From contig NZ_PKDG01000008.1 in assembly GCF_002863005.1 (NCBI RefSeq), positions 1 to 64,000 on the forward strand: a stretch of 64,000 nt of DNA, read 5' to 3'. Numbering within the stretch: position 1 is the stretch's first letter; each line of letters opens with the position of its first letter. The stretch comes from Pseudoxanthomonas sp. GTDB lineage: Bacteria > Pseudomonadota > Gammaproteobacteria > Xanthomonadales > Xanthomonadaceae. The translations under genes and the position numbers were made by a program. Positions 45,025 through 50,083 of the stretch are shown in pieces. Below the pieces are notes generated by a model that did not search any database, was not told the DNA's origin, and worked only from the letters and a program-made list of their open reading frames with translations.

Positions 45025-46551
45025 ATGCTTCCATCGATAGACGAAGAACGCATCCGCCACGCCGGGCTGCGCGGGCGCGTGATCAGCGCCGAGCACGCCG
45101 CCCGCCTCATCCAGCCCGGTGAAACCGTTGCGATGAGCGGTTTCACGGGCTCGGGCTATCCCAAGGCCGTGCCGCTGGCGCTGGCGGCGCGCATCGAACG
45201 CGCGCATGCCGCAGGCGTGCCGTTCCAGATCAAGCTGATGACCGGCGCCTCCACCGCGCCGGAACTGGACGGCGCACTCGCGAAGGCCGATGCCATCGCG
45301 CTGCGCATGCCGTTCCAGAGCGACCCGGACGCGCGCAAGCGGATCAACGACGGCACCCTGGACTACATCGACATCCACCTCAGCCACGTCGCCCAGCATG
45401 TGTGGTTCGGCTTCTACGGCCCCATCGATACGGCCGTGGTGGAAGTCTCGGCGATCCGCGAAGACGGCACGCTGGTGCCCTCGACCTCGGTCGGCAACAA
45501 CAAGACCTGGCTGGACCTGGCGAAGAAGGTGATCGTCGAGGTCAACGACTGGCAGCCGGCCGGCCTGGAGGGCATGCACGACATCTACTACGGCACCGCG
45601 CTGCCGCCGCACCGCAGGCCGATCCCGCTGGAACACGTGCAGGACCGCATCGGCGATACCGCGCTGCATTGCGATCCCGACAAGATCGTCGCCGTGGTGC
45701 GCACGCACGGTCCCGACCGCAACAGCCCGTTCAGTCCGATCGACGCCACCAGCGAGCGCATCGCCGCGCACCTGATCGCGTTCCTCAAGCACGAAGTCGC
45801 GCAGGGCCGGTTGCCGGCGGACCTGCTGCCGCTGCAGTCGGGCGTGGGCAACATTCCCAACGCCGTGCTCGCGGGGCTGGCGAAGAGCGGCTTCCGCGGC
45901 CTCACGGCGTTCACCGAGGTCATCCAGGACGGCATGCTCGACCTGCTGCGCGATGGCGTGCTCGATGTCGCCTCGTGCACCGGCTTCGCGCTGAGCCCGG
46001 AGGCGAACGAGGTGTTCAAGCGCGATATCGCCTTCTACCGCGAGCGCATCATCCTGCGCACGCAGGAGATGTCGAACCACCCGGAACTGGTCCGCCGGCT
46101 CGGCTGCATCGGCATGAACGGCATGATCGAGGCCGACCTCTATGGCAACGTCAATTCCACCCACGTGATGGGCAGCCGCATCCAGAACGGCATCGGCGGC
46201 TCGGGCGACTTCGCCCGCAACGGTTTCATGTCGGTGTTCCTCAGCCCCAGCACTGCGAAAGGCGGCAGCATCTCCGCGCTGGTGCCGATGGTCAGCCACG
46301 TGGACCACACCGAACACGACGTCTCGGTGATCGTCACCGAACAGGGCCTGGCCGACCTGCGCGGCCTCACCCCCAAGCAGCGCGCCCGCACGCTGATCGC
46401 GAACTGCGCCCATCCCGACTATCGCGATGCACTGCAGGACTACTTCGACCGCGCCCTGCACCGCAGCTACGGCAAGCACACCCCGCACCTGCTACCCGAG
46501 GCGCTGTCATGGCACCAGCGGTGGTTGGAGACGGGGAGCATGAAGGAATAG
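45025..46551 (+). CDS. Acetyl-CoA hydrolase/succinate CoA-transferase family protein
   Basis: This 508-residue class I CoA-transferase has the N-terminal TVAMSGFTGSGYPKAVPLAL, the Cat1/ACH1-type segment LPLQSGVGNIPNAVLAGLA and the catalytic Glu in LTAFTEVIQDGMLDL. Glycine-rich and C-terminal motifs are IGGSGDFARNGFMSVFLSPS and VIVTEQGLADLRGLTPKQRA. Such enzymes move CoA between acetate and succinate, or hydrolyse acetyl-CoA. The length and ACH1-like pattern favour succinyl-CoA:acetate transferase. The ATG at 45025 is chosen over an upstream frame. Confidence 0.92.
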   Translation: MLPSIDEERIRHAGLRGRVISAEHAARLIQPGETVAMSGFTGSGYPKAVPLALAARIERAHAAGVPFQIKLMTGASTAPELDGALAKADAIALRMPFQSDPDARKRINDGTLDYIDIHLSHVAQHVWFGFYGPIDTAVVEVSAIREDGTLVPSTSVGNNKTWLDLAKKVIVEVNDWQPAGLEGMHDIYYGTALPPHRRPIPLEHVQDRIGDTALHCDPDKIVAVVRTHGPDRNSPFSPIDATSERIAAHLIAFLKHEVAQGRLPADLLPLQSGVGNIPNAVLAGLAKSGFRGLTAFTEVIQDGMLDLLRDGVLDVASCTGFALSPEANEVFKRDIAFYRERIILRTQEMSNHPELVRRLGCIGMNGMIEADLYGNVNSTHVMGSRIQNGIGGSGDFARNGFMSVFLSPSTAKGGSISALVPMVSHVDHTEHDVSVIVTEQGLADLRGLTPKQRARTLIANCAHPDYRDALQDYFDRALHRSYGKHTPHLLPEALSWHQRWLETGSMKE

Positions 46552-46580
46552 GCGCCTTCACGCGTTCGCCACTCGGCAAG

Positions 46581-46654
46581 GTCGGGGTGAACGAAATCGT
46601 CCCAACGTACGTCATCCGCGGCGGCTATGTCGGGGTTCGCAAGATCACCCCAAC
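46581..46654. repeat. Imperfect direct repeat of 26 bp with hairpin potential
   Basis: Two copies starting GTCGGGGT and ending CCCAAC (46581-46606 and 46629-46654) match at 19 of 26 positions, and each can fold on itself. They lie between the converging CoA-transferase gene and the following unknown gene. A dispersed intergenic repeat or bidirectional terminator is likely. Confidence 0.5.
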
Positions 46655-46673
46655 CGATAGCCCTGCCGCTTCG

Positions 46674-47090
46674 TCAGGCCTCGCCCGCAGCGGCATCCGA
46701 AATCTCAAGAAACCATCGACGCCTTTCACTCGGCTGATCCAGCCTGTCGTAGTCCTGCGTGAAAGCATCCAGCAGCGCCGATGTAGGCGACTCATACTTC
46801 CAAAGCTTCTTCGCAAGCAGATGTTGAAGGACCTCCAGTTGGGACAGCACCTCGTCATCCCCTTCGGTTGCCAGAGCGGCGTCGGCAAAACGGCGATACA
46901 AGTCCGCCAGCAGGTCGCTGCCCTCGCGGGAAGAAAGCGCTTCATAGAGGTAGCGCTGGTCCACCACAGGATCGACCGATCCCGCATGTACGCCATGCTC
47001 CGAGAGGAAGCCTTCCATCAGTTCCGACCGGCACGCGATCTCGGCCGCCAGAAGCCTGTAAACCCCGGTGAACGCTTCGACCGCTGTCAT
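46674..47090 (-). CDS. Hypothetical helical protein
   Basis: This 138-residue protein is predicted mostly helical (VYRLLAAEIACRSELMEGFL, LLADLYRRFADAALATEG, LSQLEVLQHLLAKKLWKYE), without signal peptide or membrane segment. The ATG at 47090 follows GAGAAAGGATCACCC, a good ribosome site, and is preferred over an in-frame ATG at 47159. A run of eight G residues (coding sense) lies 72 bp upstream. No family was recognised. Confidence 0.7.
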   Translation of the reverse strand: MTAVEAFTGVYRLLAAEIACRSELMEGFLSEHGVHAGSVDPVVDQRYLYEALSSREGSDLLADLYRRFADAALATEGDDEVLSQLEVLQHLLAKKLWKYESPTSALLDAFTQDYDRLDQPSERRRWFLEISDAAAGEA

Positions 47091-47188
47091 GGGTGATCCT
47101 TTCTCCTGCACGTTGACCTCTGTGTCCACGACGAGTGGGGGGCTGGATCGAGCCGTCATCGTCCCCCCCCCATCCTACCCGTTCGCCG

Positions 47189-47698
47189 TCAGGCGTTCTG
47201 CTCCACCAAGCGCGGCGATTTCATCACCCCCAGCACCCGCAGCGCGCGTGCCATGAACAGGCCGCTGAAGAGGCCGTAGGTGCCGGCCACCACCACGACG
47301 GCCGTCGTCGTCTCGAGGAGGCCCGGCGTCATGGCATGGACCACCGCCACGGCGTACTTGAAGAAGAAGATGCCCATCATCAGCGCGAGCGGTAGCCAGC
47401 TGCCGGGGACGGTGAACTGCTTCGTCGATGCGTCGTAGGCCACGCGGCGCGACGGTGCGCGTAGCATCGCGATGGCCACCACGGCGACCCATGCGCAGGC
47501 CCAGGCGGTCAGCGCGGTAAGGTGGGCGTCGAACGTCGACCAGACCGAGTACAGCGACCACGCCAGCATGGCGACCGGCAGCACGATCAGGCGGCCGCGC
47601 GAGACCTGGCGCGTCCTGCTCTGCAGGCAACCCAGGTAGACCAGGCCGAAGAACAGGCCGAAGACCCAGAGGGGGGTGTGGGTGAGGATCTGCATCAT
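47189..47698 (-). CDS. DUF6622-like inner-membrane protein
   Basis: This roughly 169-residue protein starts MMQILTHTPLWVFGLFFGLV and has about five hydrophobic segments (VLPVAMLAWSLYSVW, ALTAWACAWVAVVAIAML, LPLALMMGIFFFKYAVAVV, TTTAVVVVAGTYGLFSGLFM). The opening HTPLWVFGLF and the following LQSRTRQVSRGR are typical of small DUF6622-type proteins of unknown function. An ATG at 47743 would add 15 residues; the MMQ start is favoured. It lies just left of the dyad repeat array. Confidence 0.8.
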   Translation of the reverse strand: MMQILTHTPLWVFGLFFGLVYLGCLQSRTRQVSRGRLIVLPVAMLAWSLYSVWSTFDAHLTALTAWACAWVAVVAIAMLRAPSRRVAYDASTKQFTVPGSWLPLALMMGIFFFKYAVAVVHAMTPGLLETTTAVVVVAGTYGLFSGLFMARALRVLGVMKSPRLVEQNA

Positions 47699-47870
47699 GG
47701 GGCGAGGGTCCGGGAGGGGCCGACACCGCGTCGGCTCATGCACATCCTCGGACCCGCCCGCCTTGCCGTGAGGTGCCGGAAGTCAACACTTTCAGGTGCC
47801 GGAGGTCGTGGGGCCTCCCCGCGCGTCCGGTCGGCTCGGCGATGAGGCTTGCCGTCACCGTCGCAGGGCT

Positions 47871-48203
47871 TTCCTGTGCCATGACGAGGAAAATATCGTC
47901 GATGGCGAACCTATCTGGTGCGTCGCCGTCGTTCTTAAGTGCCATGACAAGGAAAATTTCTTTCGACGTCGAAGCATGGAGGTGCCATGACGATGAAATT
48001 TTCATCGATGGCGAAGTTCTTTTGTGCCATGACGAAGAAAATCGCAACGACGCCGCTGTTCTTTCTTGTGCCATGACAATGAAAATATCTTCGGCATCGA
48101 CGCTCCATGGTGCGATGACCGGGAACATTTCTCCGATGGCGCCCCTCTCTGGTGCGGCATCGAAGAAAAAAGCATCGCCATCGATGAAATTTTCATCGCT
48201 TCC
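47871..48203. repeat. Array of about seven dyad-containing repeats, 42-44 bp period
   Basis: Units begin with TGCCATGAC or a close variant at 47877, 47940, 47983, 48025, 48069, 48111 and 48153, spaced 63, 43, 42, 44, 42 and 42 bp. A typical unit reads CCATGACGATGAAAAT, then a variable TTTC/ATC part, then TCGATGGCGAA. Units 1, 3 and 7 hold strong dyads, for example CGATGAAA-T-TTTCATCG in units 3 and 7. The array is AT-richer than its surroundings. Frames are open on both strands across it, but none looks like a normal gene. It lies between a DUF6622-like gene and a proline-rich membrane protein gene, which end or start at its edges. I recognise no known element. Confidence 0.8.
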
Positions 48204-48227
48204 GGTATTTCCGGCCTCGGCAGCCGA

Positions 48228-48776
48228 TCAGAGTGCACAGCCGCGGCGGCTCATCGAAGCCTGGATCGTGTTCGCGCTGGAGGGGCTGTTGCGCATGGCG
48301 CGGCGAAGTTCTTCACAGGTCACGTTCTTGAGGAACTGCTGGTAACGGCCAACGAACGAGCTGTCGTGGAGGATCACGTTGAGCCGTGACGGTGCCTCGA
48401 ACGCGCGCTTGTCCTGGCGGACGAAGAGATCACGCTCGCCTGCGCGCAGCGGCGCGGCCGGCAGCGAGAGCACCAGCGGCCCCGTGTCCTGCGATGGCAG
48501 CGGCGGCGCGTCGTGCGGTGCCGTCTCAGGAGGCGTCGCCGACATGCGCGGCGCGGGTCGCGGGCGTGCAGGCAGCGACGGCAGGTTCGGGCGCGAAGCC
48601 ACGGTGCGTGGAACGACGGTCGGGCGCGCGATGAAGCGCAGGCGCAGGCGATCGCTGTCCTCCGCCATCCGTCCCTGCCCCGACGGGCGGGAGACCAGCA
48701 GCACAACGCCGACACATGCATGCACCAGCACGACCACGACGACGGCGACGATCCTGTCCCTGCGCATGCGTTCCAT
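48228..48776 (-). CDS. Hypothetical single-pass, proline-rich periplasmic protein
   Basis: This 182-residue protein has one N-terminal membrane helix (IVAVVVVVLVHACVGVVLLV, residues 9-28). A Pro/Arg-rich linker follows (about residues 50-100), and then a small C-terminal domain ending in RYQQFLKNVTCEELRRAMRN with two Cys. The layout recalls TonB-like energy transducers, but the TonB C-terminal YP box is absent. Its stop lies 25 bp from the dyad repeat array. No family was recognised. Confidence 0.7.
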   Translation of the reverse strand: MERMRRDRIVAVVVVVLVHACVGVVLLVSRPSGQGRMAEDSDRLRLRFIARPTVVPRTVASRPNLPSLPARPRPAPRMSATPPETAPHDAPPLPSQDTGPLVLSLPAAPLRAGERDLFVRQDKRAFEAPSRLNVILHDSSFVGRYQQFLKNVTCEELRRAMRNSPSSANTIQASMSRRGCAL

Positions 48777-48901
48777 CCTGGTGGCGAGCGAGTGTGCGAA
48801 TGGCTCGCCACCCTACCTGCACGACCGCCGCGCCACGCATCGCAGCGCGAACACGTTCAGAACGAAGTCAGCCCCATGTAAGGGATGGGTTAAACGCCTA
48901 C

Positions 48902-48927
48902 AAAAAAAGGGGCGGTCGCCCGCCCCT
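48902..48927 (-). terminator. Rho-independent terminator after pilU
   Basis: On the minus strand GAGGGGCGGGCGACCGCCCC folds into a GC-rich hairpin followed directly by seven T residues, 25 bp after the pilU stop. It is the terminator of the pilT-pilU unit. Confidence 0.9.
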
Positions 48928-48952
48928 CTCCGTGCGTCGCGTCGGGCGGAGG

Positions 48953-50083
48953 TCAGCGAACCTCCGCGATCTCCACGCCATCCAGGCCCTGCGCCAGTGT
49001 GCGGGCGTCGCCGCCCTGGGCCAGCTTAATGCGCAGGCGCACCTCGTTCTGCGAGTCGGCGAAGCGCAGCGCATCCTCGTAGCTGATCTCGCCGGCCTGG
49101 TACAGCTCGAACAGGGCCTGGTCGAAGGTCTTCATGCCGAGGTTGGTGGATTCCTTCATCACTTCCTTCAGCTTGTGGACCTCGCCCTCGCGGATGTAGT
49201 CCTGCACCAGCGGCGTGCCGAGCAGGATTTCCATCGCCACGCGGCGCGCCTTGCCGTCCGGCGTGGGGATCAGCTGCTGCGCCACCACGCCCTTCAGGTT
49301 CAGCGAAAGATCCATCAGCAGCTGCTGCCGGCGGTCTTCCGGGAAGAAGTTGATGATGCGGTCCATCGCCTGGTTGGCGTTGTTGGCATGCAGCGTGCAC
49401 AGCACCAGGTGGCCGGTTTCGGCGAAGGCGATGGCGTGGTCCATGCCCTCGCGGGTACGCACCTCGCCGATCATGATCACGTCCGGCGCCTGGCGCAGCG
49501 TGTTCTTCAGCGCGGCTTCCCAGCTGTCCGTATCGATGCCGACCTCGCGCTGGGTGATGATGCAGCCTTCATGCTTGTGCACGAACTCGATCGGATCCTC
49601 GATCGTGATGATGTGGCCGGTCGAATTCTGGTTGCGGTAGCCGATCATCGCCGCCAGCGAGGTCGACTTGCCGGTACCGGTGGCACCGACGAACAGGATG
49701 ATGCCGCGCTTGGTCATCGAGAGCGTCTTGATGACGGGCGGCAGGTTCAGCTCTTCGATGGTCGGGATGCGCGTCTCGATGCGGCGCAACACCATGCCGA
49801 CCTGGTTGCGCTGGTAGAAGCAGCTCACGCGGAAGCGTCCCACGCCCGCCACGCCGATGGCGAAGTTGCACTCGTGGGTCTTCTCGAACTCCTCGCGCTG
49901 CGCCGGCGTCATCACGTTCAGCACCAGGTCGCGCGACTGCTGCGAGGTCAGCGGCGTCTGCGTGATCGGCGAGATCTTGCCGTGCACCTTGATGGACGGC
50001 GGCATGCCGGACGTGATGAACAGGTCCGACGCCTTCTGGTGCGCCATCAGCTTGAGGAACGAGGTGAAATCGATGGTGCTCAT
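48953..50083 (-). CDS. pilU: Type IV pilus retraction ATPase PilU
   Basis: This 376-residue PilT-like hexameric ATPase has FTSFLKLMAHQKASDLFITS at the N terminus, Walker A VGATGTGKSTSLAAMIG, the Asp box IITIEDPIEFVHKH, Walker B PDVIMIGEVRTREGMD and the His box TGHLVLCTLHANNANQAMDR. PilU works with PilT to strengthen pilus retraction in twitching and DNA uptake. The C-terminal LYQAGEISYEDALRFADS is PilU-like. It lies 66 bp after pilT. Confidence 0.96.
   Translation of the reverse strand: MSTIDFTSFLKLMAHQKASDLFITSGMPPSIKVHGKISPITQTPLTSQQSRDLVLNVMTPAQREEFEKTHECNFAIGVAGVGRFRVSCFYQRNQVGMVLRRIETRIPTIEELNLPPVIKTLSMTKRGIILFVGATGTGKSTSLAAMIGYRNQNSTGHIITIEDPIEFVHKHEGCIITQREVGIDTDSWEAALKNTLRQAPDVIMIGEVRTREGMDHAIAFAETGHLVLCTLHANNANQAMDRIINFFPEDRRQQLLMDLSLNLKGVVAQQLIPTPDGKARRVAMEILLGTPLVQDYIREGEVHKLKEVMKESTNLGMKTFDQALFELYQAGEISYEDALRFADSQNEVRLRIKLAQGGDARTLAQGLDGVEIAEVR

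Follow-up and report, generated by a model that had tools for sequence, protein, structure and literature searches.

A DNA array with 21-bp units in Pseudoxanthomonas, its relatives in Xanthomonadaceae and a linked family of small proteins

In ParR/parC, TubR/tubC and iteron/Rep systems, a small gene lies beside a phased direct-repeat array, which its product binds side by side. REPtrons, composed of REP/BIME repeats and a RAYT/TnpA-REP protein, combine a gene with its own adjacent palindromic repeats and with sequence-matched solo copies elsewhere in the genome, the repeats being dispersed REPs of 20–40 bp. Co-evolution of protein and repeat in REPtrons is described in the accessible text of PMC8266576. 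Two further kinds of DNA are of interest for comparison: CGTC-tagged palindromic repeats, according to the available portion of PMC3733652 short palindromes of intergenic regions that in part form clusters, occur for the most part in Alphaproteobacteria and are reported to lack a transposase of their own, and phased A-tract or nucleoid-protein curved DNA, in which A/T tracts stand in helical phase (available portion of PMC3940949).

Here we describe an array located in a 64,000-nt stretch of a Pseudoxanthomonas sp. genome (contig NZ_PKDG01000008.1; hereafter the window). It belongs to a large family of bacterial DNA arrays, apparently not described before, whose units are two helical turns long; many of these arrays adjoin a gene for a small partner protein. 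REPtrons and partition-type gene-plus-repeat pairs have the closest layouts; a Y1 transposase, a GTAG tag and an adjacent NTPase were not found. Unlike the dispersed REPs, the arrays are continuous and phased at 20–22 bp. Neither unit profile contains GTAG, and GACG occurs only within the A-units of one lineage (C3, see below). The partner proteins, of 154–170 aa, have no transposase match, and where REPs reach a high copy number, the matches listed for the own genome include three array loci of the window type. With ParR/parC, TubR/tubC and iteron/Rep the locus type shares a small gene beside a phased array that the gene product would bind, but it differs in its two-turn units, in paralogues with different arrays and in chromosomal solo arrays. 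The GACG/CGTC of the A-unit is a likeness to the CGTC-tagged repeats, for which the available text of PMC3733652 describes no 21-bp phased arrays; neither Pseudoxanthomonas nor Xanthomonas appears in the main text of that paper. In contrast to phased A-tract DNA, the unit is sequence-specific, has fixed G/C positions and comes with a cognate gene. No description of the arrays or of the protein was found among the open-licence PMC papers listed (a term search of PMC2267715 gave no matches), and an earlier description elsewhere is possible.

The array in the window

The original prediction placed a phased array of dyad repeats at 47871..48203, with a period of 42–44 bp. A cyclic 21-state model finds the array with a score of 168 and sets its limits at 47830..48200 (no strand assigned), so that the array itself stands and its start moves to 47830. 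The best score in about 138 kb of Markov-shuffled loci was 17, and no segment in the rest of the window scored above 14. The basic repeat unit is 21 bp; the predicted spacings were read correctly, the 42–44 bp period being that of a pair of units. A-units (GTGCCATGACGARG followed by an A/T tract) alternate with B-units (for example CATCGATGGCGAA followed by a tract), which explains the spacing of 42 bp, and one 22-nt and one 23-nt unit account for the spacings of 43 and 44 bp. These two units put the window copy out of strict phase, by 1 nt and by 2 nt.

Units of the GTGCCATGAC type, or close to it, start at 47876, 47939, 47982, 48024, 48068 and 48110 (spacings 63, 43, 42, 44 and 42), and a seventh, diverged one starts at 48152. 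The cyclic-model parse, with all units on the + strand, reads as follows. An A-type unit, GTGCCATGACGAGGAAAATAT (47876..47896), is followed by a B-type unit, CGTCGATGGCGAACCTATCTG (47897..47917), and by the unit GTGCGTCGCCGTCGTTCTTAA (47918..47938), the third of the 63-bp first gap. The next A-type unit (47939..47959) precedes the 22-nt B-type unit with a phase slip of +1 (47960..47981); the A-type unit GTGCCATGACGATGAAATTTT (47982..48002) then forms a palindrome with the following B-type unit, CATCGATGGCGAAGTTCTTTT (48003..48023). After a further A-type unit (48024..48044) and the 23-nt B-type unit with a phase slip of +2 (48045..48067), four regular units (A, B, A′, B; 48068..48151) lead to the diverged last units (48152..48200), which hold the CGATGAAATTTTCATCG palindrome at 48182–48198. 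Tandem Repeats Finder scores part of the array (47982–48086, period 42, score 126).

The predicted inverted repeats are present: CGATGAAATTTTCATCG occurs at 47991 and 48182 within 44-nt arms (47991–48034 and 48155–48198) that are 82% complementary. The array is AT-richer than its surroundings: its G+C is 0.515, that of the adjoining 500 bp on either side 0.694 and that of the whole window 0.679. Its units are continuous, without spacers, and it is not a CRISPR; as far as tested it matches no known element, since no Rfam match reaches the gathering score within 46500–49800. In the own genome, seven matches to the 19-mer core were found at up to three mismatches, five of them inside the array, and the reversed core, used as a control, gave none at the same setting.

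On one side the array is flanked by a gene for a DUF6622 protein (47189..47743, − strand; PF20327, E 1e-25), whose 5′ end faces the array, and on the other by a − strand ORF (48228..48776) whose 3′ end is 27 bp away and whose DUF5560 match of 20.6 bits lies below the cut-off of 25. Beyond this ORF is a type II/IV secretion ATPase gene (48953..50083, − strand; Pfam match), which we take to be PilU-like. Relatives of the ATPase gene adjoin arrays in L027 and L067 too, and the side of a pilU-type gene is, for some arrays, one of the locations that recur between species.

A coding origin of the period, as a heptad repeat, was considered and rejected: the frames noted as open on both strands are open in this copy, yet none stays free of stops throughout the 39 family arrays tested, and in A-units TGA interrupts two of the three sense frames. 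The best frame is stop-free in 16 of 39 arrays, compared with 4.3 in a unit-profile simulation, and is thus more open than simulated.

Distribution and plan of related arrays

The array is neither single-copy in its own genome nor confined to it. Two further arrays of the window type lie in the own genome (G000, 3.96 Mb), at C3:138.6–138.9 kb and C1:245.7–245.9 kb. When the 38 genomes of the genus (own included) were searched with model R1, 23 gave a match at E 0.01, and in 15 of these the E-value was below 1e-5. The broader model R2, used at E 1e-4 across Xanthomonadaceae, has matches in 46 of 297 genomes (own included), which belong to 18 of the 54 genera; for seven of the 46, every hit lies above 1e-5. 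The E-values of both models are rough. R1 hits outside the genus in L169, L170, L171 and L174 scored only 16–24 with the first unit model, and L170 was later extended to a 263-bp array with a score of 50 (as L210). A scan of named genomes returned 33 stretches, of which six Pseudoxanthomonas records (mexicana, japonensis and strains PXM01-03) match array loci described here; the other 27 we take for chance hits, their number being roughly what such a pattern would be expected to give.

In a class-wide sample, 6 of 274 genomes match the array model: the own genome, one genome of the same family, G512 as a strong case (16 matches) and three with single weak hits, of which those in L222–L224 look like coding or chance repeats. 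G512 is a gammaproteobacterium of another family with several copies of array plus partner gene (L221, L227, L233, L236, L324, L333, L336 and L338–L345). Many of the genes in these copies carry a frameshift or a truncation, at positions that differ between them, and some of the copies have flanks in common, with internal deletions.

By the cyclic model, 42 of 48 loci scanned contain an array, one each, mostly of 250–430 bp (range 78–607) and mostly of 13–20 units. Around 51 core GTGMSATGACRARG anchors in 28 loci, the 21-nt composition pattern is kept for at least 126 nt on either side; four of these loci (L069, L070, L076 and L080), which show no array by HMM, are left out of alignment A1, which uses 45 of 47, two overlapping windows of one array also being dropped, while A5 uses 50 of 86 windows. 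Several sites recur between species, namely the kdpC–kdpD gap (9 loci), an extracellular-nuclease-type gene (7) and a PepP-type gene (6), where, as for all neighbours other than the Pfam matches at the window locus, gene names were read from the sequences. In other genera the letters of the unit differ and the plan is the same, a 14-nt dyad SYYSG NNNN CSRRS followed by a 7-nt spacer with C...G ends.

Two members have a particularly regular appearance. The arrays L209:1404-1780 (G285) and L212:1421-1755 (G274) are long and alternate at 42 bp between CTCGGCACGCCGAGCTCCGAG and CTCGGATGACGGAGCTATTTG; a partner gene was not found in either genome, and a 139-aa ORF beside them presumably recalls the XAC0095 family.

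Constraint on arrays between orthologues

Orthologous arrays differ by many substitutions and few indels, at rates that depend on the position in the unit. In 11 of 15 orthologue pairs, summed by hand, the substitutions in arrays number 499; of the array indels, 7 have a length that is no multiple of 21, one measures 21 nt and one 42 nt. The flanks of the same pairs contain 1000 substitutions and 126 indels, so that indels per substitution are about nine-fold fewer in arrays, a ratio that is only indicative because flanks mix coding and non-coding DNA and badly alignable stretches. The pairs outside the hand sum are window/L027 (block gaps), L031/L066 (distant) and the redundant kdp pairs L119/L124 and L120/L124. 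Over all 15 pairs, substitutions amount to 4–8% at phases 0, 4, 9 and 13 and to 17–25% at phases 15–19, the spacer. Individual pairs vary: substitutions reach 32% in the L117/L115 array, with 104 of them and zero indels, L031/L032 has flanks free of indels but an array with two of 1 nt, L031/L066 has six array indels, one of them of 21 nt, and the window and L027 arrays differ by gaps of 53, 52, 17, 25, 1 and 2 nt.

Bases across the A/T tract covary palindromically, at phases 14/20, 13/21, 12/22, 11/23 and 10/24 (z of 9.4, 8.1, 5.4, 3.1 and 2.2, respectively), and the other dyad centre shows no consistent excess. High z values also occur for some pairs of adjacent bases. The covariation, mismatch and frame tests were made without L128, L129 and L130, and indel-bearing units were omitted from the covariation, mismatch and array-similarity comparisons. 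Taken together, the rare indels, the phase-specific rates and the strand-neutral covariation point to selection on double-stranded DNA in helical phase.

Quasi-palindrome correction can produce palindrome covariation. A neutral minisatellite, with functionless 21-bp arrays that arise and last through template switching and slippage at quasi-palindromes, could give rise to the observed covariation, and the unit-sized indels of 21 and 42, the persistence of arrays without the gene (see below) and the higher divergence of the L117/L115 array than of its flanks (0.32 vs 0.11) would be in line with it. Such an origin sits poorly with the shortage of indels relative to flanks of mixed coding and non-coding DNA, and with the phase-specific rates; nor does it fit an architecture common across genera despite unlike unit sequences, or the linkage to one protein family. 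We consider it quite improbable.

The covariation is base-pair-like, and the same signal was examined for a transcribed chain of hairpins, a candidate of the original prediction, which would be a non-coding RNA or a UTR element of the partner or other genes acting, for example, as a protein sponge. The arrays fold better than the mean of six shuffles in 27 of 27 cases of the upstream class and 25 of 26 of the downstream class, the latter of which could be 3′ UTRs, but the MFE strand preference is not significant (p 0.11 and 0.12). For the nuclease-side arrays (A2, 7 sequences) the consensus fold is fairly good, at −37.6 kcal/mol, and in 9 of its 45 pairs at least one sequence differs on both sides, whereas the RNAalifold covariation term is about 0 in 17 type I arrays. 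Mismatches at junctions with at least four of six pairs show no RNA-strand bias (G.U 57 vs A.C 66), and the strand-biased base-pair conservation of structured ncRNA was not seen in the arrays tested. The lack of an Rfam match at gathering score near the window array and the 21-bp phase, for which A-form RNA offers no evident reason, also speak against hairpins, and we regard this reading as very unlikely.

We note by eye that in the nuclease-side arrays L030, L031, L032, L066, L079 and L127 the terminal units have the opposite orientation and could form a long-range stem, in which L030 shows a paired change (GTGCC...GGCAC vs GTTCC...GGAAC in other nuclease-side arrays).

The partner gene family and a proposed protein-binding platform

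Arrays in different genera often adjoin one recurrent gene family, which encodes the proteins of 154–170 aa and suggests an unrecognised protein–DNA system. A 20–22-bp-periodic array lies within 800 bp of 56 of 76 distinct partner genes (30 upstream, 27 downstream, one both), and the same holds for 31 of 40 partner genes chosen from a protein search regardless of arrays, as opposed to 8 of 500 window chunks in the control. Among the 20 partner genes without an array by the period test, L039, L058 and L064 have a modelled array. The protein tree separates genes with an upstream array from those with a downstream array, with four switches over 60 leaves (genes with a best period of 18–24 and a score of at least 0.42) compared with a mean of 29.8 and a minimum of 17 after shuffling. 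Unit length varies by gene, being 22 bp at L307, L291, L304, L312 and L293 and 20 bp at L278.

The partner gene is under purifying selection (dN/dS of 0.11–0.44 in 13 pairs), and its product is acidic, with a median pI of 5.6 (n = 76). For 11 partner proteins no convincing match was obtained in Pfam, NCBIfam, PHROG and PADLOC (best E 0.006, for one member) or in the PDB (best E 0.37), and an AlphaFold2 model from an alignment of two close sequences was poor (pLDDT 45.6). At E 1e-8, a phylum sample contains the gene in 2 of 398 genomes, both of Xanthomonadaceae, and G512 has twelve mostly partial or broken matches at E 0.001. Unlike in ParR/parC, no third gene such as an NTPase was recognised as recurrent beside the gene–array pair in 40 loci; the four largest ORF clusters (38, 30, 10 and 9 loci) appear by eye to be frame shadows, cast by the partner gene and by arrays, and the next comprise 3 loci each.

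Three copies of the partner gene are found in the own genome. The C3 copy (G000:C3:139104-139583) has its array about 146 bp upstream, the C10 copy has an upstream 21-bp array of its own with another sequence, GCCATCGATCGCTTTCCGAAA, in 7.3 copies, and the C12 copy (L240, G000:C12:34661-35035) lacks its N-terminal part and has no detected array. The window array has a similarity of 0.78 to the array of the C3 gene and of 0.23 to that of the C10 gene, and the C1 array likewise one of 0.79 to the C3 lineage and of 0.30 to C10. In fact, array sequence tracks the protein lineage and not the genome: similarity between arrays is 0.72 at protein identities of at least 0.85, 0.60 at 0.70–0.85 and about 0.32 at 0.35–0.55, and the arrays of paralogues within a genome are unlike each other, at a mean of 0.30 over 32 pairs. 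For protein against array, the Mantel correlation is 0.19 over 52 gene–array pairs, a value reached by 0 of 999 permutations, while below 70% protein identity the correlation of 0.132 does not exceed permutation (maximum 0.150 of 499). These correlations indicate that the array follows the protein lineage over short to moderate distances and is saturated beyond.

Among the readings that the original prediction offered, a multi-site array presenting one helix face to a protein is the best supported, given the 21-bp register, the few indels and the strand-neutral covariation. We think it somewhat probable that the window array is a solo copy of such a platform, to which a cognate protein would bind. 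The 21-bp unit, two helical turns long, combines conserved G/C positions with a palindrome centred on a 5-nt, mostly A/T tract, so that the units, mostly 13–20 per array, present the same helix face over some 250–430 bp. The platform would be half of a two-part module, the other half being the small protein encoded beside its cognate array elsewhere (here C3), with paralogues carrying arrays of different sequence. Most likely the protein, acting by itself or together with a nucleoid protein, would occupy adjacent units as a symmetric multimer and thereby build a filament or bridge distant arrays. Solo arrays such as that of the window could act as trans sites that organise DNA or regulate expression near fixed genes, and together with the gene-side arrays they would make up a single network of sites. 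A simple promoter operator is at odds with the downstream position of the array in roughly half of the cases.

Provided that the pairing is real, many such protein–DNA array pairs exist in parallel in Xanthomonadaceae, with specificities that have diverged and a two-turn geometry that has stayed constant. These would form a natural set of orthogonal array-binding proteins and a new candidate chromosome-organising or regulatory system, and would give a role to a protein family without a model in the four family libraries scanned. More tentatively, the pairs might represent an unrecognised class of DNA-organising module, in which small orphan proteins load on cognate arrays of two-turn palindromic units, whose length is 20, 21 or 22 bp according to lineage. 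A genome would then have several pairs that exclude one another, besides solo arrays at conserved chromosomal sites, and these might work as an orthogonal set of chromosome-tethering or silencing systems.

The layout of the locus also recalls a selfish system of the REPtron kind, whose protein helps its own array to copy or move and whose solo arrays are neutral or weakly constrained relics. As in RAYT/REP pairs, the gene lies beside repeats, solos are of like sequence and paralogues have different repeats. Yet PF01797 (Y1/HUH transposase) or any other transposase gave no match at E 0.1 in 11 partner proteins, and searches of viral, phage and plasmid collections found no relatives of the protein. 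Most of 17 type I arrays, at different loci, have in common the head TGTGAGAAATCGAACCAGAAAGGTGCGC or a close variant of it, which would suit a mobile element, as would the patchy distribution, gene loss and broken copies, among them the several array and broken-gene copies of G512. Few array loci per genome, among the matches listed, and array locations that recur between species with rare indels and phase-specific constraint argue the other way, and we hold a selfish system to be unlikely.

The main difficulties for the platform reading are the acidity of the protein and the arrays that persist where the cognate gene is absent or broken; both fit indirect binding, slow decay or the selfish alternative. 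A decaying repeat family, also suggested at first, may describe some copies, in view of the slipped phase of the window array and of the arrays for which no cognate gene was found. By hand count and uncorrected for kinship, arrays occur in 41 of 94 genomes with the partner gene and in 5 of 203 without it (297 genomes). In these five of the 46 array-bearing genomes no partner gene was found even at E 0.001, two of them (G097 and G305) having single weak array hits (E 2e-5 and 8e-5). The 53 gene-bearing genomes without an array by R2 are to be read with the fact that this model misses divergent arrays: G019 has none by R2, yet an array stands at all five of its genes. C3-type arrays persist in G027, where all three partner genes retrieved fall outside the C3 lineage, and also in G029, where the nearest relative of the C3 gene has 54% identity, contains an in-frame stop and lies beside an array (L111:1913-2341).
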